Positions 25,186 to 46,685 of a stretch of DNA of 64,000 bases are shown here, in pieces (the stretch's first letter is position 1; each line of letters starts with the position of its first letter). Both the position numbers and the translations under genes were made by a program. Origin of the DNA: a virus; the IMG/VR virus record IMGVR_UViG_3300017739_000004, positions 1 through 64,000 of that record; one strand, 5' to 3'. The notes under the pieces were generated by a model that saw nothing but the letters and a program-made list of their open reading frames with translations, was not told the DNA's origin and searched no databases.

Positions 25186-27447
25186 ATGAATGATAAAAGT
25201 ATTATGTCAATTAATGTCACGAAGCGAGATGGTTCACTACAACCATTTGATTTAGATAAAGTTCATAAAGTTTTGGAATGGGCAGTCGCCGATATTAGTG
25301 GTGTGTCAATGTCTGAAATAGAACTAAAAGCGAATATACAATTATTCGATAAAATTAATGCTTATGATATACATGAGTTATTAATCAAATCTGCAGCTGA
25401 GCTCATATCAGAAACCACACCTAATTATCAATTTGTAGCAGCAAGACTCATTTCATATAAACTTCGTAAAGAAGTCTATGGTGATTATCAACCTTGCTCT
25501 CTTAGAGAACTTATTACAGATAATATTGCAAGAGGCGTGTATGATGATGAAATATTACAAAAATATACTATAGAAGAATTAGTAGATTTAGATAATTATA
25601 TTAAACATGAAAGAGACGATACTTTTACATATGCAGGAATGGAGCAATTTCGTGGAAAGTATTTAGTTCAAGATAGAAGAACTAAAAAACATTATGAAAC
25701 TCCACAAATGCTTTATATGATGATCAGTGCAACTTTGTTTGCTGATTATGGTGATAATAGAATGAAATTTGTAAAGGAGTATTATGATGCGATTTCTCAA
25801 TTTTATATTTCGTTGCCTACACCGATTATGGCAGGAGTTAGAACTCCTACGAGACAATTTAGTTCATGTGTCCTTATTGAATCCGACGATTCCCTGGATT
25901 CTATTAATGCTACTGCTACTAGTATTGTTAAGTATATAAGTAAAAAAGCCGGTATTGGTATAGGTGCAGGAAAGATTAGAGCTCTCGGAGCTAAAATAGC
26001 AGATGGCTCTGTTGTACATACAGGGCTTATACCATTTTTAAAATATTTTCAGTCAGCCGTTAAATCCTGTTCCCAGGGAGGTGTAAGAGGTGGAGCAGCT
26101 ACTGTGTATTTACCAGTATGGCATTATGAATTTGAAGATTTAGTGGTATTAAAAAATAATAAAGGCACAGATGAAACAAGAGTTCGTCACATGGATTATG
26201 CCTTTCAATTTAATAGATTGATGTATGAAAGATTATTAGAAGGTGGTCATATCACTTTCTTCGATCCTAAAGATGTACCAGAATTATATGATGCATTCTT
26301 TAGTGACCAAGATTTGTTCAAAGAGCTATATGAAATAGCTGAACGAAAAACTTCAATTAGAAAGAAAAGCTTACCAGCATTAGAAGTCTTTTCCAGATTT
26401 TTAACTGAAAGAAAAGATACGGGTCGTATTTATTTAATGAATGTCGATCATGCAAATGAGCATAGTTCTTTTGAAGAAAAGGTAGCACCAATACACATGA
26501 GTAATTTATGTTGTGAAATTGATTTACCAACCAAACCTTTAAATGCTTATGACGATCATACAGGTGAAATATCACTTTGTACTTTATCAGCAATTAATTG
26601 GGGTTTAATAAATGACCCTAAAGAATTTGCAAAGTATTGTGATCTATGTGTTCGTGGTTTAGATGAGTTAATGGATTATCAACAATATCCAATAGCTGCA
26701 GCAGAATCAAGCACTAAGAGTCGTAGGCCTTTAGGTGTTGGTATAATTAATTTAGCATATTTCTTAGCTAAGAGAGGTTTGAAATATGATGAATCAGCAT
26801 ATGAAACAGTAGATGAATATGCAGAGGCATGGTCTTATTATCTAATTAAAGCTTCAGCTGATCTGGCAAAAGAAAAAGGTAAAATACCTTTGAATAATCA
26901 TACAAAATATGCCAGTGGAAAGTTGCCAATTGATACATATAAGAGAGCGATAGATAATTTAATAGAGCATAAAGAGCGTCTTCCATGGGAAGATTTGCGA
27001 GAGCAACTCAGAGAAACTGGAATTCGGAATTCAACTCTAATGGCATTAATGCCTGCTGAAACAAGCGCTCAGATTAGTAATAGTACTAATGGAATAGAAC
27101 CACCAAGAGCATTGGTGAGTTATAAACAAAGTAAAGACGGAGTCATGGCTCAAGTCGTACCCGGCATTTACAATTTAAAAAATAAGTACGATTTACTCTG
27201 GGAGCAAAAATCACCAGCAGGTTATTTAGGAATATGTGGTATATTGCAAAAATATGTTGACCAAGGAATATCAGTCAATACTTCATATAATCCAGAACAT
27301 TATGAAGATAATAAAATTCCAATGTCTGTTATGATACAAGACCTGGTCACAAGTTATAAGTACGGTTTAAAACAATTATATTACTTCAATACATACGATG
27401 GTGCTGGAGAAATGATAGATGAAGATTGCGAGACATGTAAGATATGA
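25186..27447 (+). CDS. nrdA: Ribonucleoside-diphosphate reductase large subunit (class Ia NrdA)
   Basis: 753 residues; reduces NDPs to dNDPs with NrdB. An ATP-cone at residues 8-95 (VTKRDGSLQPFDLDKV) gives allosteric control. Catalytic-site residues are recognisable: the substrate cysteine in RQFSSCVLIESD, the radical cysteine segment SNLCCEID, and LMPAETSAQISNSTNGIEP. The protein ends with the redox pair CETC, reduced by glutaredoxin, which is encoded in the same operon. No intein or intron interrupts it. A later in-frame ATG at 25204 is an alternative start. Confidence 0.96.
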   Translation: MNDKSIMSINVTKRDGSLQPFDLDKVHKVLEWAVADISGVSMSEIELKANIQLFDKINAYDIHELLIKSAAELISETTPNYQFVAARLISYKLRKEVYGDYQPCSLRELITDNIARGVYDDEILQKYTIEELVDLDNYIKHERDDTFTYAGMEQFRGKYLVQDRRTKKHYETPQMLYMMISATLFADYGDNRMKFVKEYYDAISQFYISLPTPIMAGVRTPTRQFSSCVLIESDDSLDSINATATSIVKYISKKAGIGIGAGKIRALGAKIADGSVVHTGLIPFLKYFQSAVKSCSQGGVRGGAATVYLPVWHYEFEDLVVLKNNKGTDETRVRHMDYAFQFNRLMYERLLEGGHITFFDPKDVPELYDAFFSDQDLFKELYEIAERKTSIRKKSLPALEVFSRFLTERKDTGRIYLMNVDHANEHSSFEEKVAPIHMSNLCCEIDLPTKPLNAYDDHTGEISLCTLSAINWGLINDPKEFAKYCDLCVRGLDELMDYQQYPIAAAESSTKSRRPLGVGIINLAYFLAKRGLKYDESAYETVDEYAEAWSYYLIKASADLAKEKGKIPLNNHTKYASGKLPIDTYKRAIDNLIEHKERLPWEDLREQLRETGIRNSTLMALMPAETSAQISNSTNGIEPPRALVSYKQSKDGVMAQVVPGIYNLKNKYDLLWEQKSPAGYLGICGILQKYVDQGISVNTSYNPEHYEDNKIPMSVMIQDLVTSYKYGLKQLYYFNTYDGAGEMIDEDCETCKI

Positions 27448-28490
27448 GTATATTAAAGAAAAATAAAAAATCACATTTAGTAAAGAATATGTTTTTTGAC
27501 GAGGGTGTTGACGTCGCAAGATACGATCAAGTTAAATACCCACAGATAGATAAGATTACTGAAAAACAATTAGGCTTCTTTTGGAGACCAGAAGAAGTAG
27601 ATGTATCTAAAGATAAAAAAGATTTCGGTGAACTTACAGAACATGAACGACATATATTTACTTCAAATTTAAAAAGGCAAATCTTGTTAGATAGTGTACA
27701 AGGTCGTGCACCCAATTTAGCATTCTTGCCTCATGCTTCATTACCTGAAGTAGAAAACTGGATAGAGACATGGTCATTTTTTGAAACAATACATTCAAGA
27801 TCATATACACATATAATCAGAAATGTATATCCAGACCCTTCAATAGTATTTGATAATATGTTAAATGTAAAAGAGATTTTAGATTGTGGTAAAGATATTG
27901 CAAAATATTATGATGATCTGATTGCGAAACCAAATAAAAAGAATTTATGGTTATGTATGCAATCAGCAAATGCCCTAGAGGGAGTCAGATTTTATGTCTC
28001 TTTCGCCTGCAGTTGGGCATTTGCTGAGCTTAAAAAGATGGAAGGTAATGCGAAGATAATAAAATTTATTGCAAGAGATGAAAATACACACCTGGCAAGT
28101 ACAACTACTATATTAAAATTATTAAGAAAAGAACCAGGGTATGCAAAAATAGCAAAAGAAACAGAACAAGAATGTGTTGACCTTTTTGTGAAGGTCATAG
28201 AACAAGAAAAACAATGGGCTGAATATTTATTCAGAAATGGATCCATGATTGGATTAAATGAATCTATCTTAAAAGATTATGTCGAATGGATAGGTGCAAA
28301 AAGAATGCGAGCTGTCGGATTACCATGCCCATTTAATGTTCCACAAATGAATCCATTACCATGGACTGAGAAATGGATTTCAGGTGGAAATGTACAGGTA
28401 GCCCCACAAGAGACAGAGATTAGTTCTTATGTGGTTGGTGGTGTTAAACAAGACGTTGATGATTCAACATTAAAAGGATTAAGTTTATAA
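27444..28490 (+). CDS. nrdB: Ribonucleoside-diphosphate reductase small subunit (class Ia NrdB)
   Basis: 348 residues. Holds the di-iron site and tyrosyl radical needed by NrdA. The segment FFETIHSRSYTHIIRN carries a metal Glu, a metal His and the radical Tyr in the same spacing as E. coli. Other ligands lie in ALEGVRFYVSF and IARDENTHLAST. The C-terminal ~15 residues should dock to NrdA. It overlaps nrdA by 4 bases and the cytochrome gene by one. Confidence 0.96.
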   Translation: MSILKKNKKSHLVKNMFFDEGVDVARYDQVKYPQIDKITEKQLGFFWRPEEVDVSKDKKDFGELTEHERHIFTSNLKRQILLDSVQGRAPNLAFLPHASLPEVENWIETWSFFETIHSRSYTHIIRNVYPDPSIVFDNMLNVKEILDCGKDIAKYYDDLIAKPNKKNLWLCMQSANALEGVRFYVSFACSWAFAELKKMEGNAKIIKFIARDENTHLASTTTILKLLRKEPGYAKIAKETEQECVDLFVKVIEQEKQWAEYLFRNGSMIGLNESILKDYVEWIGAKRMRAVGLPCPFNVPQMNPLPWTEKWISGGNVQVAPQETEISSYVVGGVKQDVDDSTLKGLSL

Positions 28491-28939
28491 TGGGTAATGA
28501 AAGTTTTTATTTAGTAATAGGTATAGTTGGCTTTATGTTTGGCTTAGTAAGTTATACACATAGCAATTTAGAATATACAGGGTACGAAAGAGTACAAAAT
28601 TGTACTGGTGAATGTTATGAAAAGTATGTAGCAGAAAATGGTACACCTGCAGAAATCGAAAGAAAGAAACAAGCAGCTGCAGCAGACGATCCATTTAGTT
28701 CTATTAAAGGACTATGGGCTGGATGTGCTGCATGTCATGGACAATCAGGTCAAGGTATGGGAATATTTCCTAAACTTGCAGGCCAAGATGCAGATACAAT
28801 CATAGAAAAATTAACTATATACAAGAACAGAGGTGAAGTTGGTAATATGAGTTCTACTATGTGGGCACAAGCCGGACAATTATCGGAGCAAGAGATAGAA
28901 ACCCTGGGTAATTTTATTCAGGAAACTATGAATGAATAG
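28490..28939 (+). CDS. Membrane-anchored class I cytochrome c
   Basis: 149 residues. Residues 6-22 form one membrane helix with no clear signal cleavage site, then a periplasmic domain. The haem-binding motif is CAACHG (C79, C82, H83). The sixth ligand is probably M120 or M124 in GNMSSTMW. The length and the HGQSGQGMGIFPKLAGQ segment fit small electron-carrier c-type cytochromes. It is placed between nrdB and glutaredoxin. Maturation would need the host cytochrome c assembly system. Host-derived metabolic gene is the likeliest origin. Confidence 0.88.
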   Translation: MGNESFYLVIGIVGFMFGLVSYTHSNLEYTGYERVQNCTGECYEKYVAENGTPAEIERKKQAAAADDPFSSIKGLWAGCAACHGQSGQGMGIFPKLAGQDADTIIEKLTIYKNRGEVGNMSSTMWAQAGQLSEQEIETLGNFIQETMNE

Positions 28940-29390
28940 GTTTAAAGCACCTCCAAACATAGCAACATTTTTATTAAGAATACCTTTATCAGCTATGTTT
29001 TTACAACAGGGATTGAGTAAATTACCTGTTGATGGTGCAATAGCAGAAGCTTGGGGATTACCATTTATAGTATGGTGGTTTGTCACATGGGGTGAGATAG
29101 GTGCAGCAATTGGTTTAATAGCTGGTGGTATATTAGGTTTAATACCATGGAATGCTAGACATTTCTTTCTAGCTAGATTAGGAAGAACCTATCCAAACTT
29201 TAGATGGTTAACAGAAGAAGCCGGTGATCTTATCACAAGATTTAGTGGTATAACAATGACTTGTATTGCAACTGGTGTAATATGGATTTTAAGTCCAGCA
29301 AGTTTATGGGATGTAATATATAATGATTACTTACATGTTAGTTTATATGTAGGTGGTTTATATTTTGCTTTAAGAGGTAATGTAAGATGA
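28932..29390 (+). CDS. DoxX-like membrane protein
   Basis: 152 residues with about four hydrophobic segments (near 15-30, 45-68, 95-118, 125-145). The N-terminal PPNIATFLLRIPLSAMFLQQGLSK resembles DoxX-family proteins, some of which interact with quinone oxidases or thiosulphate oxidation. It overlaps the cytochrome gene by 8 bases and glutaredoxin by 4, so the pair is translationally coupled. A joint role in respiratory electron flow is an inference. Confidence 0.65.
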   Translation: MNRFKAPPNIATFLLRIPLSAMFLQQGLSKLPVDGAIAEAWGLPFIVWWFVTWGEIGAAIGLIAGGILGLIPWNARHFFLARLGRTYPNFRWLTEEAGDLITRFSGITMTCIATGVIWILSPASLWDVIYNDYLHVSLYVGGLYFALRGNVR

Positions 29391-29626
29391 TTATAGAAAT
29401 ATTTGGAAAAGATTTTTGTCCTTATTGCGATAAAGCAGTAAGAATTGCTCAACAATTTATACAAGAGAGTGAGCATAAATACGAATATAAAAAATTAGAA
29501 AGAGATTTTACAAGGGAAGAATTATTTGAACAATTTCCAGGAGCTAGAACTTTTCCACAAATAAGAATTGATGGTAATATTATTGGTGGATGTACAGACT
29601 TCGAAGCTTGGGTACTGAATAGATGA
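29387..29626 (+). CDS. grx: Glutaredoxin
   Basis: 79 residues with the dithiol active site FCPYCDK (C11, C14), the TFPQIRIDG cis-proline loop and GGCTDFEAW at the glutathione site. It should recycle NrdA by reducing its C-terminal cysteines. It starts with ATGA overlap to the DoxX-like gene. Confidence 0.93.
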   Translation: MIIEIFGKDFCPYCDKAVRIAQQFIQESEHKYEYKKLERDFTREELFEQFPGARTFPQIRIDGNIIGGCTDFEAWVLNR

Positions 29627-29754
29627 AACTAGAATGTGAATATTGTTTTAATAGTTTTGTCATAAGACCAGACAATAAAGAAACTCGTATCAATTTCTGT
29701 CCACACTGTGGTGAACCGATAGAAGATGATGACGAGTTGGATTTCCATGAATGA
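29623..29754 (+). CDS. Small zinc-ribbon protein
   Basis: 43 residues starting at ATGA overlap. Two CxxC pairs (CEYC near 4-7 and CPHCGE near 26-31) form a rubredoxin-like zinc ribbon, with an acidic tail. Could be a nucleic-acid- or protein-binding accessory; function unknown. Confidence 0.7.
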   Translation: MKLECEYCFNSFVIRPDNKETRINFCPHCGEPIEDDDELDFHE

Positions 29755-30175
29755 TTGGCTTTACGAAGGTAAGGTATTTAATCCACCAGATGATTTCACA
29801 TCCGAAGATTATTATGGATTTGTCTATTGCATTACGCACTTGGGAACCGGGACTAAATATATTGGAAAGAAGTTTTTCTGGTCCAAGAAAACTTTACCTA
29901 TCACAAAGAAAAGAAAAAGACGAAAAAGATTATTAGTAGAATCAGATTGGAGAGATTACTTTGGTTCTAATACACATTTAAAAGAAGAAGTTGTAACAGC
30001 TGGTAAAGATTTTTTTCATAGAGAGATAATTCATTTATGTAAAACAAAAGGTGAATGTGCATATATGGAAGCTAAAGAGCAATTTGATAGAGATGTTTTA
30101 TTATCAGATGATTATTATAATGGTATTATCAATTGTCGTATTGGTGCTCAATCAGTAAAAAACTTAAAAAAATAG
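29747..30175 (+). CDS. GIY-YIG-like phage nuclease
   Basis: 142 residues from the ATG overlapping the previous stop. YGFVYCITHLGTGTKYIGKK corresponds to the GIY...YIG strand pair, and ESDWRDYFGSN carries the next conserved Arg and aromatic residues. The basic stretch KKRKRRKRLL could bind DNA. T4-like phages have similar stand-alone proteins; there is no sign that it is an intron-encoded homing enzyme here. Confidence 0.7.
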   Translation: MNDWLYEGKVFNPPDDFTSEDYYGFVYCITHLGTGTKYIGKKFFWSKKTLPITKKRKRRKRLLVESDWRDYFGSNTHLKEEVVTAGKDFFHREIIHLCKTKGECAYMEAKEQFDRDVLLSDDYYNGIINCRIGAQSVKNLKK

Positions 30176-32604: not shown

Positions 32605-32856
32605 ATGATATACGAATTTAAAAATACAAAAACAGATGAAGTATTTGAATTGGTTATGCCATTAGCTGAATTAGATGATTATTTAAAAAACAATCCACAT
32701 ATAAAAAGGCATCATTCATCTGCACCTACCATATCGTATAGTGGTGAAGCAAGTAAAGGTGTATTAAACAGAGCAGGTGATGGTTGGAAAGAAGTTCAAG
32801 ATCGTATTAAAAGCGGATTACCACCAAAAGACAAACACAGGATAAAAACAAAATGA
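32605..32856 (+). CDS. Conserved phage protein
   Basis: 83 residues. MIYEFKNTKTDEVFELVMPL begins like an FmdB-type zinc-ribbon protein, but the cysteines are absent. The C-terminal GWKEVQDRIKSGLPP motif is shared with cyanophage proteins. Function unknown. Confidence 0.62.
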   Translation: MIYEFKNTKTDEVFELVMPLAELDDYLKNNPHIKRHHSSAPTISYSGEASKGVLNRAGDGWKEVQDRIKSGLPPKDKHRIKTK

Positions 32857-33122
32857 AAAGAAAAGTTTTAGATAGCTGGAAAAGACCGATTGAAATAGAA
32901 GTTGAAGATAATACACCTGATCGTATACCTCAACAACTAAATTTTAATTTTGGACCAAGAGAGGCAACACCAGAAGAATTTGAAGAGTGGAGAAAAAGCG
33001 AATTGGATTGGTGGGGTGATCGACAATTTAAGTTTATTGTTTTAGCTGTAATAGTACAATTCAGCGCACTAGCATTTATGTTTACAACATTCATGGTAAT
33101 TGATATGGGATTAGGTAAATGA
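32853..33122 (+). CDS. Small membrane protein
   Basis: 89 residues. A polar N-terminal ~60 residues is followed by one transmembrane helix (FIVLAVIVQFSALAFMFTTF) near the end. ATGA overlaps on both sides couple it to its neighbours. Function unknown. Confidence 0.6.
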   Translation: MKRKVLDSWKRPIEIEVEDNTPDRIPQQLNFNFGPREATPEEFEEWRKSELDWWGDRQFKFIVLAVIVQFSALAFMFTTFMVIDMGLGK

Positions 33123-34928: not shown

Positions 34929-35061
34929 ACCTACTGGTGCATATTCAACACACCATGTTGGAATCAAAAAGGGTACTAGCCAAGGACGTAGACCGGACAC
35001 TTCTACGATGAATAAAAACAAACGCCGGTCGTACAAAAAATATCGAGGTCAAGGAAAATGA
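34921..35061 (+). CDS. Small very basic protein with TTG start
   Basis: 46 residues. The start is TTG, set by GGAGGA seven bases upstream; no ATG is available before residue 30. The C-terminus STMNKNKRRSYKKYRGQGK recalls a short basic protein conserved in many tailed phages. It overlaps both neighbours. Nucleic-acid binding is likely. Confidence 0.6.
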   Translation: MAKPTGAYSTHHVGIKKGTSQGRRPDTSTMNKNKRRSYKKYRGQGK

Positions 35062-35441
35062 AAAAATTATTATTTTGGGTGATTGATTGCTGGAGAGTTG
35101 TTATGGATATGAGGTATAATCCTTTAAGACATATTAAAGACCCATCAATTCAAATGTACTTTTATTTAGCACTCTTTATGATGTGGAGTGGATATTTTGC
35201 AGTTCTTGCATGGACTTATTTAGGGTGGGTTGATTATAGTATTACATATTCTGTTGTAATTCACTTAGCTGTATTAATTCCTTTATTTATTACAAATGCT
35301 ATATTTGCAGAAGCAGAAAAAAATGGTTCTAAGTGGTATACAAGTTTTAGAACACAACAAGATATAGAGGCTATGAATAAAAGATTATCACAACCTAATT
35401 ACGAAAAAAGAGTTAAGTGGGATATAGATAGAGAAGCTTAA
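35058..35441 (+). CDS. Integral membrane protein
   Basis: 127 residues with two or three membrane segments (near 33-54, 60-88) and a charged C-terminal tail. ATGA overlap with the upstream gene. No family recognised. Confidence 0.6.
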   Translation: MKKLLFWVIDCWRVVMDMRYNPLRHIKDPSIQMYFYLALFMMWSGYFAVLAWTYLGWVDYSITYSVVIHLAVLIPLFITNAIFAEAEKNGSKWYTSFRTQQDIEAMNKRLSQPNYEKRVKWDIDREA

Positions 35442-39195: not shown

Positions 39196-39462
39196 ATGGC
39201 AAGCACATTAAAATTATTAGGGTCGGAAGCGGCTTTAAGTACAACTGCTAGTAATGTCGGAAGAGCTAAACTTGTAAGAGTATTAAATACAGATACAACT
39301 GCTAGATTAGTGACTGTAAAAAGTGGTTCTAATACTATAGGTACTATAACACTTGCACCATCTGAAGTACAAAATATTATGAAATTACCAGCTGAAACTT
39401 TAGAAGTAGCAACGGCAGCAAGTACAAAGGTAAAAGCAGTAAGTATAGCATATACTAATTAA
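39196..39462 (+). CDS. Small beta-rich virion-type protein
   Basis: 88 residues, Thr/Ala/Val-rich beta pattern (KLVRVLNTDTTARLVTVKSG). Cyanophages carry similar small structural proteins. It is directly followed by iscU with stop/start overlap. Confidence 0.58.
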   Translation: MASTLKLLGSEAALSTTASNVGRAKLVRVLNTDTTARLVTVKSGSNTIGTITLAPSEVQNIMKLPAETLEVATAASTKVKAVSIAYTN

Positions 39463-39956
39463 TGGCATATTCAAAAGAGGTCACCGAGAGATTTTATGGG
39501 GTCTTAAATAATCCTCAGAGTTTTTCTGTGGGAAGATTCGACCCCAAAGCGCCTAATGTCGCTACAGGAATGACCGGTGCTCCAGCTTGTGGAGATGTCA
39601 TGAAGCTACAATTAAAGCTGAACGAAAAAGAAGAAATAATCGATGTTAAATTTAAAACATATGGTTGTGGTTCAGCTATAGCATCATCTACAATGTTTGT
39701 AGAAATGCTGAAAGGTAAAACTGTAGAAGAAGCTAAAAAGATTAAAGATCGTGATATAGCAGAAGCTTTAGATTTACCACCAATCAAATTGCATTGTTCT
39801 GTTTTAGCAGAAGATTCTATTAAGAAAGCAATAGAAGATTGGGAAAGCAAAAAACATAGGCAGCATAATTATCAAACTTATCCAACAACAGAGCATGACG
39901 AATCAGATGATTTAGAAGCTGCCAAGAGAGTTGATAATGTCGGAAACACTGATTGA
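39462..39956 (+). CDS. iscU: IscU/NifU-type Fe-S cluster scaffold
   Basis: 164 residues. The three scaffold cysteines and the conserved Asp are present: GAPACGDVM, TYGCGSAIASS and LHCSVLAED. After the fold (to about 130), a 35-residue acidic, His-containing tail is added. IscU assembles Fe-S clusters with a cysteine desulphurase; none is visible here, so host IscS would be needed. Paired with an A-type carrier immediately downstream. Confidence 0.9.
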   Translation: MAYSKEVTERFYGVLNNPQSFSVGRFDPKAPNVATGMTGAPACGDVMKLQLKLNEKEEIIDVKFKTYGCGSAIASSTMFVEMLKGKTVEEAKKIKDRDIAEALDLPPIKLHCSVLAEDSIKKAIEDWESKKHRQHNYQTYPTTEHDESDDLEAAKRVDNVGNTD

Positions 39957-40317
39957 ATTAACTGATGAAGCAATTAAAAAACTTCTTCAAAAAAAAGACC
40001 AAGAACGATTTAATTATATACGGCTTGGGATCACAGGTGGAGGTTGCGCTGGTTTTGAGTATATCTTTGATTCTGTTGTTAATAAGTCTGTTGACGACAT
40101 AGTATTAGACTTTGGTAAATTACAATTCGTAGTCGATAAAGTTTCCATACCATATCTATCTGGTATGACTTTAGACTTTGAAAAACAAGGACTAAATGAA
40201 GTCTTTGTATTCAGAAATCCAAAAGAAACATCAGCCTGTGGTTGTGGTGTTTCTATCAATTTTGATCTACAAAAAGTAGAAGAAGATAATTCCAAGATAT
40301 TTGCGATCGAAGTATAA
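39937..40317 (+). CDS. iscA: A-type Fe-S carrier (IscA/ErpA family)
   Basis: 126 residues from the ATG inside the iscU end. Cysteine ligands are in GGGCAGFEY and ETSACGCGVSI, the family pattern. It would receive clusters from IscU and pass them to apoproteins. Overlap of 20 bases with iscU implies joint production. Confidence 0.88.
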   Translation: MSETLIELTDEAIKKLLQKKDQERFNYIRLGITGGGCAGFEYIFDSVVNKSVDDIVLDFGKLQFVVDKVSIPYLSGMTLDFEKQGLNEVFVFRNPKETSACGCGVSINFDLQKVEEDNSKIFAIEV

Positions 40318-40651: not shown

Positions 40652-40947
40652 TGGATGTACAAATCACAGAAGCTGATTTTACTATTGTTTCTCTAATCAC
40701 TGACTATGGCTTTCCAACTGTAATGGTAGTTGGGTTAGGATATTTTGTCTATTTCGTATGGCAATTTATTAATAATAATATCGAGCCAGAAATAGAAAAG
40801 ATGCATTTCCAATTAATAAAAGTGATTGACCAAATGAGAATGTTGGACCAAGATTTAATTAGGCTTCAACAAAAAGTAGATGTAGTTTTAGAATATAAAG
40901 AGAATGAAAAAAAGAAACGAGGAGAATTGGGAAAAGATGAAAAGTAA
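40651..40947 (+). CDS. Membrane-anchored coiled-coil protein 2
   Basis: 98 residues. ITDYGFPTVMVVGLGYFVYF forms the membrane segment near 16-36, followed by a coiled coil (EKMHFQLIKVIDQMRMLDQD) and a charged tail. Starts on the previous gene's stop. Likely paralogue of the preceding protein. Confidence 0.62.
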   Translation: MDVQITEADFTIVSLITDYGFPTVMVVGLGYFVYFVWQFINNNIEPEIEKMHFQLIKVIDQMRMLDQDLIRLQQKVDVVLEYKENEKKKRGELGKDEK

Positions 40948-41443
40948 TTTAGAAGTTGCTGGATTAATTGCTATATTTGGTTTATCTTTGTATGGCGTAT
41001 CACCTGCAATGTCTGCAGATGAAATTGTACATAAGTTCAAAAATCCATCATTTAGTGGAGTTGGTACAGGCGCACATTATCTTACAATAGAAAACCAGGA
41101 ACATTCCAGAAAAAAAGCGATCGAAGATGCACTTGAAGCTGCAAAGAATGCTGCTGAAAGAGAGGCAGAGAATTCAACTCTTGCAAAATTTATTAGAAAC
41201 CTAGAGAGTAGAATATATGCTCAATTTGCTAAACAATTAGTTGAGTCAATGTTCTCTAATGATAACCCTGCGGGGTTTGGTTCTTTTATTTTAGAAGGTA
41301 ATATAATCACATGGGAAGTTGTCACAGATGAATCAGGTGCAGAGTTTATTAGATTGACAGTTGTAAGTGAAGATGGAACAGAAACAGTAATTGAAATACC
41401 TGTAGGTACAGGAAACTTTGGACAAGACCCAGATAATGGTTAG
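40937..41443 (+). CDS. csgF: CsgF-like curli assembly protein
   Basis: 168 residues. A signal peptide (GLIAIFGLSLYGVSPAMSA) is followed by IVHKFKNPSFSGVG, matching the FRNPNFGG start of mature CsgF, the part that inserts into the CsgG pore. The rest has a helical neck (LEAAKNAAEREAENS) and a beta C-terminal domain ending IEIPVGTGNFG. In curli systems CsgF caps CsgG outside the cell. The ATG inside the previous gene was chosen for GGAG spacing and signal peptide. The next gene is csgG. Confidence 0.85.
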   Translation: MKSNLEVAGLIAIFGLSLYGVSPAMSADEIVHKFKNPSFSGVGTGAHYLTIENQEHSRKKAIEDALEAAKNAAEREAENSTLAKFIRNLESRIYAQFAKQLVESMFSNDNPAGFGSFILEGNIITWEVVTDESGAEFIRLTVVSEDGTETVIEIPVGTGNFGQDPDNG

Positions 41444-42368
41444 AGTACTTTTAGCATCATTAATAATTTTAAGTGGTTGTGCTTCGATACCGAAGTGGTC
41501 GGACGATCCACAAGATTGTAAGATACCAAAGATTGTTGATGTAGTCACGGCTGTACAAAAAGTTTTTGAAAGAAAATACATTTGTGTAGATATGCCAGAG
41601 GTTGTTAACTTACCTGCTTATATACAATTATTAGAATTACCACCACCAACAATTGAAAAACCAGTTGTTGCAGTATATAGTTTTTTAGATAAAACGGGTC
41701 AAAGAAAAGCAAGAGAAGGTATAGCAGATTTCTCAACAGCTACGACTCAAGGTGGAGTAGAATTATTAGTAGACGCTCTAAAGACAGCCGGAGGTGGCAC
41801 ATGGTTTAGAGTTGTTGAAAGACAAGGCGTAGATCATCTAGTTAGAGAAAGACAGATTATCAGAAGCGCTAGACAAGAGTTTGCAGGTGATAATGGCCCG
41901 CAACCTTTAAACCCTTTATTATTCGCAGGAATGATTATAGAGGGTGGAATAATTGGTTATGATACTAACATAATGACGGGAGGTCGGGGCGCACGAACTC
42001 TCGGTATTGGTTATGCGAAACAATATCGTAAAGATGTTGTGACTGTTTCGGTTAGAGCTGTTTCAGTTCTGACTGGTGAAGTATTATTAAACGTCCAAGC
42101 TCGTAAGACTATTTTATCTTATGGGTCAGGTGGTGATATCTTTCGTTTTATAGAGGAAGGTACTCAACTAGTAGAATATGAGGACGGTGTGGGAAATAAT
42201 GAGTCGGTGACATATGCAACACGAGCAGCAATTGAAGCTGCGGTGTTGGAATTAATTTACCAAGGCCACGATCGTGGTTATTGGAATATAAGTGATGGGC
42301 ATCGCCATCCACATCTTAATGATGGGGTAAACGATAAACATCAATTAGAGGAGTACGAAAATGAATAA
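41436..42368 (+). CDS. csgG: CsgG-like outer-membrane secretion lipoprotein
   Basis: 310 residues. Lipobox LIILSGC with lipid Cys at 15. The CsgG fold is visible: VVAVYSFLDKTGQRK, GVELLVDALKTAGG, WFRVVERQGVDHLVRERQII, and ALLFAGMIIEGGIIGYD-type strands (written here as LLFAGMIIEGGIIGYDTN). VSVRAVSVLTGEVLLNVQA and GGDIFRF complete it. CsgG forms a nonameric pore through the outer membrane for unfolded curlin export. Overlaps csgF by 8 bases and the curlin-like gene by 8. Confidence 0.9.
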   Translation: MVRVLLASLIILSGCASIPKWSDDPQDCKIPKIVDVVTAVQKVFERKYICVDMPEVVNLPAYIQLLELPPPTIEKPVVAVYSFLDKTGQRKAREGIADFSTATTQGGVELLVDALKTAGGGTWFRVVERQGVDHLVRERQIIRSARQEFAGDNGPQPLNPLLFAGMIIEGGIIGYDTNIMTGGRGARTLGIGYAKQYRKDVVTVSVRAVSVLTGEVLLNVQARKTILSYGSGGDIFRFIEEGTQLVEYEDGVGNNESVTYATRAAIEAAVLELIYQGHDRGYWNISDGHRHPHLNDGVNDKHQLEEYENE

Positions 42369-43098
42369 ACTTTTAAGTATAGCATTGCTATTGTCGACTA
42401 CTTTTGTTTTCGCACAAGCCACTGATGATAACGAAATTAAGATCACACAATCTGGTGATACCTTAAAATTATATGTAGACCAAATCGGTTTTGGAAACAA
42501 AATCGGCGGTGATGACGCTTCAGGCGGTTCACTATCTGCTATGACTATTACAGGTAGTTCACTAGAGTTTGATTTAGATTTTACTGGTAATCAAAACGTT
42601 TTATTTGGACCAGTCGAAGCTGATAGTTCTTACTATAAGCTCGATTTTACTGGTGATTCAAACAAAATAGATTGGAATATTGGTTATATCGGAAGTGCTG
42701 ATGATTCAAACATTAACTTTGATGTGACAGGTGATTCTAACGAATTTGACCTAGATCAAGGTTATGTTGCTAGTGCAGAAAGATTAGATGCTGATTTAAT
42801 TTTAATTGGTAGTTCAAATATATTTGACATAGACTGGGAAAGTGATGATAACGTTTGGGACTTTGATATTACAGGAGATTCAAACAATATTAACACATTA
42901 CAAAATGACGGCGAACACAATCTTGAGTTCACTTTAGTAGGTGATTCAGCTGACGTCGACATTAATCAAATATCTGGTACATGTGCAAGTGGAGCAGGAA
43001 CAAGTTGTGTTTCACCAAATGCAAATATTGTATTAGATGTGACTTCAGACAATGCAATCATTCAACTTAATCAACAAGATTCGTCTAACGATTCTTAA
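42361..43098 (+). CDS. Secreted curlin-like repeat protein 1
   Basis: 245 residues. Signal peptide MNKLLSIALLLSTTFVFA, then repeats of about 20 residues with a G-D/S-S-N turn (TGDSNKIDWN, TGDSNEFDLD, GSSNIFDIDW, TGDSNNINTL). The alternating hydrophobic pattern and Asn/Gly turns recall the beta-arch repeats of curlins CsgA/CsgB, though Asp replaces many of the Gln/Ser. Probably the substrate of CsgG. Two cysteines lie near the end. GGAG precedes the ATG. Confidence 0.7.
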   Translation: MNKLLSIALLLSTTFVFAQATDDNEIKITQSGDTLKLYVDQIGFGNKIGGDDASGGSLSAMTITGSSLEFDLDFTGNQNVLFGPVEADSSYYKLDFTGDSNKIDWNIGYIGSADDSNINFDVTGDSNEFDLDQGYVASAERLDADLILIGSSNIFDIDWESDDNVWDFDITGDSNNINTLQNDGEHNLEFTLVGDSADVDINQISGTCASGAGTSCVSPNANIVLDVTSDNAIIQLNQQDSSNDS

Positions 43099-44161
43099 TT
43101 TATTACTCATTAGTGGGTTTGCTTTTTCTAGCGAACCCATTGGTGGTATTAAAGAATCTATTGGCTATGGTGGAATTACAAGAGATGATGAAACTTATAA
43201 CCATGATGTCGGATTAGAAATTCAACTTAACGATCAAGCTGAAACAGCAAATGGTCGTATGCTTATAGAGTTCTTAGACGATGCAGAACTCCAACTCAAA
43301 GAACATTCAAGGGTTTTAATAGATACGGTTTATTACGATCCAAACCCAAACCTATCAAAAATGACTATGCGTATGGTCAGTGGAACAGCAAGATTTGCAT
43401 CAGGTTCTAAGGGTTTAATTAATAAAGCAAACATAGAAATATCAACACCAACCGCTACAATTGCTGTAAGGGGCACGGACTTCACCACAACAATAGATGA
43501 AATTGGACGAAGCCTTGTTATCTTATTACCTGACGATAAGGGAGAACCTTCAGGTGTTATTGAAGTCACCAGTTTAGGTGGAACAGTTGTATTAGATGAA
43601 GCTTATGCAGCCACAATGGTGTCATCTTATGATTTACCACCAACAACAGAAACCGTAATTCAAGGTATAACACCTGCACTGATTGATAATATGTTTATTG
43701 TGAATCCACCAGAGGAGGTGAAAGAGGCAGTAGAAGAACAATTAGCCGATGAACAAAACGAAGATCAAGGAATATTAGATATAGATTTATTAGACTTTAC
43801 TGAATTAGAAGAAGATGAACTAGAAGAAGATGACTTAGGTGAGTTTAATGAATTAGATATTGATGAATTAGATGTAGAGTTTTTAATAGATGTTTTAGAC
43901 ATTGTAGATTCTGGTGATCTATTTGATACATTAGGTGAGTTTGATATTCAAGGCGCAACAAGAGGATTTAATGATGAATCACAATATAATGTCTTTTTAA
44001 GAAATGGTGATTTAGTATTTTATAGAAATGTAAATGGTGTAATAGAATTACAATTCGAAGCTGGAGGTAGCTTTACCTTAGACACAGATACTCCAACATG
44101 GTCAGGTATAATTACTGGTAATGATGGAGAAGATATAATAGTAAGGATTAGACAGTTATAA
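43052..44161 (+). CDS. Secreted FecR-domain protein
   Basis: 369 residues. Starts inside the curlin-like gene; the N-terminus (INKIRLTILNLLLISGFAFS) is a signal peptide. A FecR domain spans about 55-185: RVLIDTVYYDP, MRMVSGTARFASGSKG and ISTPTATIAVRGTDF are typical. An acidic linker follows (LEEDELEEDDLGEFNELD), then a C-terminal beta domain. FecR domains occur in periplasmic or surface proteins, some with signalling roles, and this one may organise the curlin-like proteins. Confidence 0.75.
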   Translation: MQSFNLINKIRLTILNLLLISGFAFSSEPIGGIKESIGYGGITRDDETYNHDVGLEIQLNDQAETANGRMLIEFLDDAELQLKEHSRVLIDTVYYDPNPNLSKMTMRMVSGTARFASGSKGLINKANIEISTPTATIAVRGTDFTTTIDEIGRSLVILLPDDKGEPSGVIEVTSLGGTVVLDEAYAATMVSSYDLPPTTETVIQGITPALIDNMFIVNPPEEVKEAVEEQLADEQNEDQGILDIDLLDFTELEEDELEEDDLGEFNELDIDELDVEFLIDVLDIVDSGDLFDTLGEFDIQGATRGFNDESQYNVFLRNGDLVFYRNVNGVIELQFEAGGSFTLDTDTPTWSGIITGNDGEDIIVRIRQL

Positions 44162-44169
44162 ATAAAACT

Positions 44170-44847
44170 ATGAATAAGAACTTCCATTACAATTTCGTAC
44201 CACTATTAACAACTATGTTTATGTTTCTTGCATTTGATTTAGTTGCTGGTCCTACAGACGATAATCATATTCACGTCGAACAAGTAGCTGATGGTGATAA
44301 TATAGAATTAAATATATCTCAAATAGGTTTTGCAAATAGCATAGAATTTTCATTTGCGCATTCAGGTAATGTATTTAATCTTCAACAAAATGGTAATGGT
44401 AATAGCATATCATGGGTGTCATATTGGGGCTCAGGTAAATCATGGGGTGGAGATGTTGATGGTTCTAATAACACAGAAAATATAATTCAGTATGATGGTG
44501 CAACTTATGGTAGACATATATGGGGTGATGAAAATATTGTAGATGTTTATCAACATGGAAATCATACACACAATTTAGACATTCACGTTGATGATGTCGA
44601 ACATGACTCATGGCAAGATGGTGCTGGGTCGCATTATAGTCATGTATATTATTATGGTAATTCAGATGGTTCAATAACTAATCTTAAACAAGAAGGTACA
44701 GGAAATCATAATGCACAAGTAGTTTTATATGGAAATTATTTAACAACACTTAATGTTTTACAACAAGGGTCAAATAATCAGTCATATAATTTAACACAAA
44801 ATTGTCAAACAGTAGGTGGATGCACAGTTAACGTCACACAAGATTAA
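44170..44847 (+). CDS. Secreted curlin-like repeat protein 2
   Basis: 225 residues. Hydrophobic signal peptide near residues 10-28 (TTMFMFLAFDLVAG), then curlin-like repeats with Gln and Asn at regular places (NISQIGFANS, FNLQQNGNGNSISW, VDVYQHGNHTHN, LKQEGTGNHNAQVV, LQQGSNNQSYN). This is closer to CsgA/CsgB repeats than protein 1. Many histidines are clustered around 90-160. Ends with two cysteines (QNCQTVGGCT). Its stop overlaps the cyclase start. Confidence 0.75.
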   Translation: MNKNFHYNFVPLLTTMFMFLAFDLVAGPTDDNHIHVEQVADGDNIELNISQIGFANSIEFSFAHSGNVFNLQQNGNGNSISWVSYWGSGKSWGGDVDGSNNTENIIQYDGATYGRHIWGDENIVDVYQHGNHTHNLDIHVDDVEHDSWQDGAGSHYSHVYYYGNSDGSITNLKQEGTGNHNAQVVLYGNYLTTLNVLQQGSNNQSYNLTQNCQTVGGCTVNVTQD

Positions 44848-46685
44848 TGAAATATATTACTTCGGTATGGTCTACATTATTACTCGTATCAGCTCTGATA
44901 TTAATAAGAGTTTATGATCCAGCAATAGTCGAGCAAGTCAGGCTCAATACATTCGATCAATACATCAAAACACTTCCAAAAGAAAAATCAAATGATATAG
45001 TACTTGTTAATATCGGTGAGAAATCACTTGGTAAGATTGGTCAATTTCCATGGCCTAGACAAGAATACGCACAAATGATTTCTGACCTAAGAAATATTAA
45101 TGCTGGCTATATTGGATTTACTATAATGTTTCCAGAACCAGATAGATTTGGTGGTGACGATATATTTGCTCAATACATACAAGACAATGGGATTATCTTA
45201 TCACAAGACGCAGATAACAATGGAAGGGCCGACAGTGCACCGTATGTAGGGCATGCACTATTTGGTACATCAGACCCTTTAGATTTTATATACAAATATA
45301 ATGGTATAGTTGCTAATATTAAGAATTTAGAACAAGAGGCATGGGGTATAGGATTAATAAATGCATCACCTGAAGTAGATAATATCACTAGAAGAATACC
45401 ACTTATGACAAATGTAAAAGATGAAATCTATCCATCTTTTGCTTTAGAATTAACTAGATTAAATATGGATCAGTTATCTTATACTATAAAATCAAATGAA
45501 GCAGGTATAGAAAGTGTAGTAGTTAGACCTTTTGAAATACCTACAGATAGTGATGGTTCAATATGGTTAAAATGGAATACAGAATTTGAAGAAATAGAAT
45601 ACGAAAGGCTAATGCCAGGGTATGATAATTTAGAAGGTAAGACTGTTATAGTCGGTGTATCAGCCAGTGGATTAGGTGCTCAGATTCCTACTCCTGGTGG
45701 TTTGATGAATCCAAACCAGCTTCAAGCCGCAGCTCTTCAAACAATTCTGTCAGACAATCCGATTTCTCGTCCTCTATGGGCTGATTCAATAGAAATTCTT
45801 GTAAGTGGAATTCTGGCTCTGTTGTTAATTCTGTTGATATATCGCGCACCGATTTGGGCTTCAGGACTCGGCTTCGTTGTTCTTTGTGTTGGACAAGCCG
45901 GATTGACTTTTTATATCTGGAATAAATTTTATATACTCCTCGATCTTAGTTATTCACTAATATTATATATAATATCTTTTGCTTCAACGAGTTTTAATAA
46001 CTTCTATAAACAATTTGCTCTTAGACAACAGATAAAGAAACAATTTGAAACATATTTGGATCCAAGACAAGTGGCTCTATTACAAAAAGACCCAAGCAGA
46101 TTAAAGCTTGGTGGTGAAAGAAAAGAAATGACTTTCTTGTTTATGGATATAGTAGGATTTACTCCTATATCAGAACATTATAAAAATAATAATGACCCAG
46201 AAGGGTTAGTAGAAATTATAAATAATTATTTAAACCGTATGACCAATATTATCTTAGACAATGGTGGTACTATTGACAAATATATGGGTGATTGTATAAT
46301 GGCCTTTTGGAATGCTCCATTAGACTGTGAAGATCATGCATACCTAGCTACTAAAACAGCTATGGAAATTGAGAGAGCAGCAGATGAACTTATTAAAGAA
46401 CTTGAAGATAAAGGCTTACCACGTATTGATGTTGGTATTGGTATTAATTCCGGGACTTGCATCGTCGGAAACATGGGATCCGAAACTAGATTTGACTATT
46501 CCGTCATTGGAGATGCCGTCAACTTGGCAGCTAGACTCGAAGGCCAAACACGCAATTACGATGGGGTTCGAGTGTTGTTGGGCGAACAAACATATAAAAG
46601 CTGTTCATCTGGAGAATTCACTGAAGTCGATAGAATCAAAGTTAAAGGTAAATCCGAACAGGTTAGAATATATACCCCAATTTGA
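44847..46685 (+). CDS. CHASE2-domain adenylate cyclase
   Basis: 612 residues. An N-terminal membrane helix is followed by an extracytoplasmic CHASE2 sensor (about 30-300; FDQYIKTLPKEKSNDIVLV, FPWPRQEYAQMI), then about three membrane helices (near 314-385) and a class III cyclase domain. Metal aspartates D434 (FLFMDIVGF) and D482 (DKYMGDCIMAF) are present, and K478 with GDAVNLAARLE supports ATP over GTP. It should make cAMP in the cytoplasm in response to an envelope signal. FecR-CHASE2 cyclase pairs exist in bacteria. Rare in phages. Confidence 0.88.
   Translation: MKYITSVWSTLLLVSALILIRVYDPAIVEQVRLNTFDQYIKTLPKEKSNDIVLVNIGEKSLGKIGQFPWPRQEYAQMISDLRNINAGYIGFTIMFPEPDRFGGDDIFAQYIQDNGIILSQDADNNGRADSAPYVGHALFGTSDPLDFIYKYNGIVANIKNLEQEAWGIGLINASPEVDNITRRIPLMTNVKDEIYPSFALELTRLNMDQLSYTIKSNEAGIESVVVRPFEIPTDSDGSIWLKWNTEFEEIEYERLMPGYDNLEGKTVIVGVSASGLGAQIPTPGGLMNPNQLQAAALQTILSDNPISRPLWADSIEILVSGILALLLILLIYRAPIWASGLGFVVLCVGQAGLTFYIWNKFYILLDLSYSLILYIISFASTSFNNFYKQFALRQQIKKQFETYLDPRQVALLQKDPSRLKLGGERKEMTFLFMDIVGFTPISEHYKNNNDPEGLVEIINNYLNRMTNIILDNGGTIDKYMGDCIMAFWNAPLDCEDHAYLATKTAMEIERAADELIKELEDKGLPRIDVGIGINSGTCIVGNMGSETRFDYSVIGDAVNLAARLEGQTRNYDGVRVLLGEQTYKSCSSGEFTEVDRIKVKGKSEQVRIYTPI

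Follow-up and report, generated by a model that had tools for sequence, protein, structure and literature searches.

A membrane-anchored cytochrome c and a DoxX-like protein inserted in the nucleotide-reductase operon of a T4-like phage: a candidate auxiliary electron-transport module

A T4-like phage genome carries, between its ribonucleotide reductase (RNR) gene nrdB and its glutaredoxin gene grx, a membrane-anchored class I c-type cytochrome and a DoxX-like integral membrane protein, and on balance we favour reading this pair as an auxiliary electron-transport module. The supporting observations are the gene order, the haem site, the fold, the selection acting on both genes, their phylogeny and the recurrence of redox genes beside them in relatives. 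The analysed stretch (the window) comprises 64,000 nucleotides of IMG/VR record IMGVR_UViG_3300017739_000004, a T4-like virus record of 102,948 bases with a G+C content of 32.8%. The genome has terminase, tail and RNR genes; its large terminase shares 67% identity with that of the named Phage C48C1, the closest terminase, and ~45% with those of cyanomyoviruses and the Pelagibacter phage Mosig.

Gene organization at the locus

All genes of the locus lie on the plus strand. The class Ia RNR large subunit gene nrdA (25186–27447; Pfam Ribonuc_red_lgC, E = 1.2e-120; PHROG 84) is followed by the small subunit gene nrdB (27444–28490; Ribonuc_red_sm, E = 3.8e-47; PHROG 86), the cytochrome gene (28490–28939; 149 aa), the DoxX-like gene (28932–29390; 152 aa) and grx (29387–29626; Glutaredoxin, E = 1.7e-9). 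From nrdB to grx (27444–29626), consecutive genes overlap by 1, 8 and 4 bases, and these coordinates bear out the claim of the first-pass annotation that the two genes sit between nrdB and grx, joined by overlaps. A tiny zinc-ribbon protein (29623–29754) follows grx and overlaps it, and a SegE-type GIY-YIG endonuclease (29726–30175), again overlapping, is kept at the same site in relatives. A spanin-like gene pair lies directly upstream of nrdA.

In relatives such as L103, L104, L106, L108–L110, L127 and L131, nrdB ends where grx starts, and phages with this direct order (e.g., L104, L106 and L110) reach NrdA/NrdB identities of up to ~77% with the window. The same slot holds the cytochrome alone in L001, L012 and others, and the cytochrome with DoxX in L031 and L034. 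Because phages with similar NrdA and NrdB have nrdB directly overlapping grx, the cytochrome–DoxX pair is an insertion into the nrdB–grx order, as the first-pass annotation had proposed in describing the two flanking genes as normally adjacent. Median dN/dS, calculated for sequence pairs with dS of 0.1–1.5, was 0.26 for the cytochrome and 0.19 for DoxX; both genes are thus under purifying selection and encode maintained proteins, and these values, together with conservation across hundreds of contigs, exclude a chance arrangement.

Properties of the two proteins

The 149-aa protein matched Pfam Cytochrom_C with an E-value of 2.9e-8, above the curated cut-off. It possesses a single N-terminal hydrophobic helix (residues 4–26), a C38-x3-C42 pair within a C-x3-C-Y motif, a CAACH haem site at residues 79–83, and M124 W125. 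M124, approximately 40 residues past the haem motif, is invariant in the alignment and corresponds to the Met of MAPHA in 8yts, i.e., to the distal axial Met ligand. Both CxxCH and MW[AGS]QA were kept in 89 out of 89 complete unique cytochromes; one of the pattern sets used for retrieval contains the haem motif itself, but loci fetched with motif-free patterns show the same conservation, so this result is not circular. The AlphaFold2 model (pLDDT 84.8) matched cytochromes c552, c553, c554 and c4 in Foldseek, with an E-value of 2.8e-5 to 8yts and target TM-scores of 0.73–0.82 for the six best matches; cytochrome c4 of the Pseudomonas bc1–cbb3 supercomplex (8smr_K) was a weaker match. Its haem motif, Met ligand and modelled fold identify the protein as a class I c-type cytochrome, with haem loading predicted. 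The expectation of a membrane-bound cytochrome with an intact haem motif thus held, and loss of the motif in relatives, which was to count against it, was found in none of the 89 homologues.

The DoxX-like protein scored slightly short of the curated threshold: the match to Pfam DoxX (PF07681; E = 2.4e-4) reached 22.1 bits, 1.5 below the cut-off of 23.6. All 15 aligned homologues match PF07681 (best E = 6.5e-7) and two bacterial orthologues exceed the cut-off with 27.8 and 31.9 bits. There is no agreed chemistry for the DoxX family; in the phage protein, E55, R103, D132 and H135 are invariant positions. The AlphaFold2 model (pLDDT 83.3) is all-helical and forms a compact multi-helix membrane bundle. 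A Foldseek comparison of this model with the PDB matched no solved fold; the receptor matches returned, all with E ≥ 0.4, are meaningless.

Distribution and ancestry

Neither protein was matched in 50,697 named phage records, and PHROGs contains a family for neither. An alignment search of IMG/VR, by comparison, recovered at least 548 cytochrome loci and at least 172 DoxX loci. The phylogeny against bacterial cytochromes that had been proposed as a check placed all phage cytochromes, except the L062 type, in one clade (SH-aLRT 99) with a long stem. In a bacterial sampling that was pattern-based and hence biased towards the query, its sister group consisted of gammaproteobacterial cytochromes of Litorivicinaceae and Halieaceae, which share 38–41% identity with the phage proteins. 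These membrane-anchored c4/c5-like cytochromes have the N-terminal helix, C-x3-C-Y, CAACH and MWGQA in common with the phage sequences, whereas their gene neighbours differ. The tree topology suggests a bacterial origin of the phage cytochrome, probably through one old acquisition followed by a long life in phages; L062 forms a long branch and perhaps represents a second capture. Four sequences with cytochromes of 53–60% identity, L148–L151, carry the labels of Synechococcus, Planctomycetaceae and Sphingobacteriales metagenome-assembled genomes (MAGs) and were rejected as host homologues, as they fall in the phage clade. L148–L150 contain T4-like phage RNR operons with the cytochrome gene, and L151 was judged by its tree position; all four are phage DNA introduced as binning contamination.

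Close bacterial copies of DoxX are rare, with three genomes and one weak match among ~780 searched. They fall inside the phage tree, and the copy from Litorivicinus shares 80% identity with a phage sequence, so that the transfer could have run in either direction between phage and bacterium. Of the bacterial neighbourhoods, only that of Litorivicinus AH-657-M20 has DoxX near the cytochrome, 4 kb upstream and on the same strand. Ten bacterial genomes encoding the nearest cytochromes were tested, and nine of them have no such DoxX; the pair is therefore not obligatory.

The nearest bacterial relatives of both proteins are gammaproteobacterial, and these affinities would suggest a marine gammaproteobacterium as the host, a placement we consider evenly balanced. 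IscU was not discriminating as a host marker (best bacterial identities of 64% and 63%). In the window, iscU (NifU_N, E = 1.4e-39) lies beside a gene for an A-type carrier (Fe-S_biosyn, E = 8e-16) at 39462–40317, forming an Fe-S cluster assembly locus; T4-like marine genomes with both genes have been described, some of them assigned to gammaproteobacteria or SAR86 (PMC5332604). A further cluster at 40904–46685 encodes the curli-type secretion proteins CsgF (PF10614) and CsgG (PF03783), a FecR-domain protein and a 612-aa membrane protein combining CHASE2 (PF05226, E = 1e-43) with a class III adenylate/guanylate cyclase domain (PF00211, E = 7e-21). Pelagimyophages have been shown to encode CsgF and CsgG (PMC7029224); what looks unusual is that a phage cluster of this kind includes a CHASE2 nucleotide cyclase.

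Gene neighbourhoods in relatives

The nrdB gene occurs within three genes upstream of the cytochrome in 47 out of 92 unique neighbourhoods, and 33 of the 92 have both nrdB upstream and grx downstream; neighbourhoods share ancestry, and these and the following counts measure recurrence rather than independent events. Other upstream genes, labelled by eye, were SbcC (16/92) and a DNA-polymerase-like gene (9/92). Three upstream genes can be read in 79 of the cytochrome neighbourhoods, and 37 of these have no nrdB; the RNR link is therefore common, but neither defining nor conserved. DoxX is located mostly away from RNR genes.

An electron-transfer gene was found within three genes of DoxX in 21 out of 62 unique neighbourhoods, directly adjacent in all 21, and no redox neighbour was recognised in the other 41. 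The adjacent partner was cytochrome c in 13 cases, pseudoazurin in five, alternative oxidase in two and peroxiredoxin in one. The pseudoazurin-type cupredoxin (PF00127, E = 9e-16), which had no match in named phages, is encoded directly upstream of DoxX in L065, L288, L294, L307 and L309, and its copper ligand pattern is kept in four out of four complete sequences. The alternative oxidase (PF01786, E = 1e-71) keeps its di-iron pattern in five out of five complete sequences; it adjoins the cytochrome in four neighbourhoods (L016, L017, L029 and L335), and these contigs, L277 and L280 carry it beside cytochrome c or DoxX. No cyanophage record matched it at E ≤ 1e-5. Phage C48C1 encodes an alternative oxidase of 61.7% identity (OQ984149.1, 26255–26818), annotated as a hypothetical protein, along with IscU and a peroxiredoxin.

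Two membrane proteins without a Pfam match, whose families are unassigned, recur in 39 out of 92 cytochrome and 19 out of 62 DoxX neighbourhoods. Both are present in the window genome on the plus strand: TM86, a small one-helix protein recognised from the neighbour clusters (32853–33122), and TM130 (35058–35441), which is 75% identical to its copy in L002, where it lies directly upstream of cytochrome–DoxX. Phage C48C1 has a TM130-like protein, also annotated as hypothetical.

Cytochrome c and pseudoazurin are functional equivalents in bacterial respiration. That either of them can fill the same slot is the best indication that DoxX cooperates with a one-electron carrier in the periplasm.

A candidate electron-transport module and its alternatives

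As an electron-transport module, the pair would act as follows. The phage cytochrome would be exported, receive haem from the host cytochrome c maturation machinery and stay anchored in the cytoplasmic membrane through its N-terminal helix. Like c4/c5-type cytochromes, it would carry single electrons from the quinone/bc1 side of the host chain to a host terminal oxidase, and the DoxX-like protein in the same membrane would most likely couple this carrier to the quinone pool. Respiratory electron flow, proton-motive force and an unclogged quinone pool might thereby be sustained as protein turnover in the host breaks down. A place in the RNR operon would provide co-expression with nucleotide synthesis and would not be essential. 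The benefit could lie in ATP, in an unclogged quinone pool or in protection from stress; because little energy is conserved by an alternative oxidase, over-reduction may just as well be relieved as ATP supplied, and the alternative oxidases found next to these genes would fit an electron outlet no less than a gain in ATP. The first-pass annotation had suggested that the pair may sustain respiration and ATP supply while dNTPs are made. The respiratory, electron-transfer part of this proposal is strengthened by the pseudoazurin and alternative oxidase neighbours in relatives, but the specific tie to dNTP synthesis is not supported, given the many neighbourhoods without nrdB and the location of most DoxX genes.

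The alternative that survives best, though we consider it unlikely, is that DoxX and its carrier protect against redox stress by draining excess electrons or relieving thiol or peroxide stress at the membrane, with energy secondary. Its model is the DoxX–SseA–SodA complex of Mycobacterium tuberculosis, reported to be a protective membrane oxidoreductase complex (PMC6930017). Consistent with such a role, a peroxiredoxin gene immediately precedes DoxX in L067, and peroxiredoxins are also encoded close to several cytochrome loci and in Phage C48C1; the alternative oxidase fits as well, in its capacity as an electron outlet. However, no superoxide dismutase and no SseA-type thiosulfate sulfurtransferase could be recognised next to DoxX in the annotated neighbourhoods, and glutaredoxin, the next gene in the window, is explained by RNR, since phages that lack the pair likewise have grx after nrdB.

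It is distinctly less probable that the pair serves reduced-sulfur oxidation, with the DoxX-like protein playing the part it has in thiosulfate:quinone oxidoreductase (DoxDA) and electrons passing to the cytochrome, as they might in phage SoxCD. The DoxX family is named after this archaeal enzyme, and phage sulfur-oxidation genes are known, including soxD, itself a cytochrome gene (PMC8190135). The partner set in the window nevertheless differs from DoxDA, as it does from DoxX–SseA–SodA, and doxA, sox and dsr genes were not recognised beside the pair in the clusters read, of which the small ones are partly annotated. Bacterial cytochrome homologues adjoin tusDCBE-like genes, assigned by eye, in L152, L154, L157 and L158, but this neighbourhood belongs to tRNA thiolation and is probably unrelated.

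Less probable still is a membrane change unconnected with electron flow, e.g., superinfection exclusion or altered lysis timing. Small phage membrane proteins often act in this way, TM130 and TM86 recur nearby, and the spanin-like pair is close at hand. The invariant haem and Met ligands of the cytochrome, and the intact copper and di-iron patterns of the alternative partners, argue instead for redox chemistry, and PADLOC returned no defence-family match.

The haem domain of a c-type cytochrome must be outside the cytoplasm for maturation, and a direct part in ribonucleotide reduction, such as electron delivery or oxygen control for NrdB, was therefore dropped as highly improbable: RNR is cytoplasmic, RNR with grx alone is common, and the tight overlaps in the window and the 33 nrdB–grx settings are offset by the 37 of 79 readable neighbourhoods without nrdB.

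Comparison with known phage systems

An auxiliary metabolic gene (AMG) is a host-like metabolic gene inside a phage genome. The position of the pair between nrdB and grx places it inside a T4-like genome; expression and benefit are predicted. The best reading of the electron-transport module is that phages of heterotrophs may carry a device comparable to cyanophage plastocyanin and PTOX. Cyanophages encode plastocyanin (petE), PTOX and ferredoxin (reviewed in PMC10452541), and in both cases T4-like marine phages combine a soluble or anchored electron carrier with a broadly similar type of quinol oxidase. The genes described here are, in contrast, non-photosynthetic, with cytochrome c, pseudoazurin and DoxX instead and an alternative oxidase unmatched in cyanophage records. 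Phage SoxD, likewise a phage-encoded c-type cytochrome, was reported from two contigs in which the haem motifs are incomplete or absent (PMC8190135), whereas the cytochrome of the window type is a single-haem carrier with an intact motif at hundreds of loci. Reads of cbb3 oxidase have been noted in viral-fraction metagenomes (PMC3474794), and the pelagimyophage AMG paper is without a cytochrome. In the open-access literature we found no report of a cytochrome–DoxX pair, none combining phage, cytochrome c, DoxX and AMG, and no viral pseudoazurin.

More broadly, phages of marine heterotrophs may possess a respiratory toolkit of modular design, with DoxX combined with carriers that can replace one another (cytochrome c or pseudoazurin) and with outlets (alternative oxidase or peroxiredoxin), by which host respiration is rewired during infection, a proposal that we put forward tentatively and hold to be nearly as plausible as not. 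If true, it would be the heterotroph counterpart of viral photosynthesis. The DoxX family would gain a testable partner, since cytochrome c or a cupredoxin in one slot points to a membrane protein that uses a periplasmic one-electron carrier. Viruses that support electron transport have been known chiefly among cyanophages; were a conserved, widespread carrier module present in heterotroph phages, the reach of viruses in the ocean would extend to aerobic respiration.
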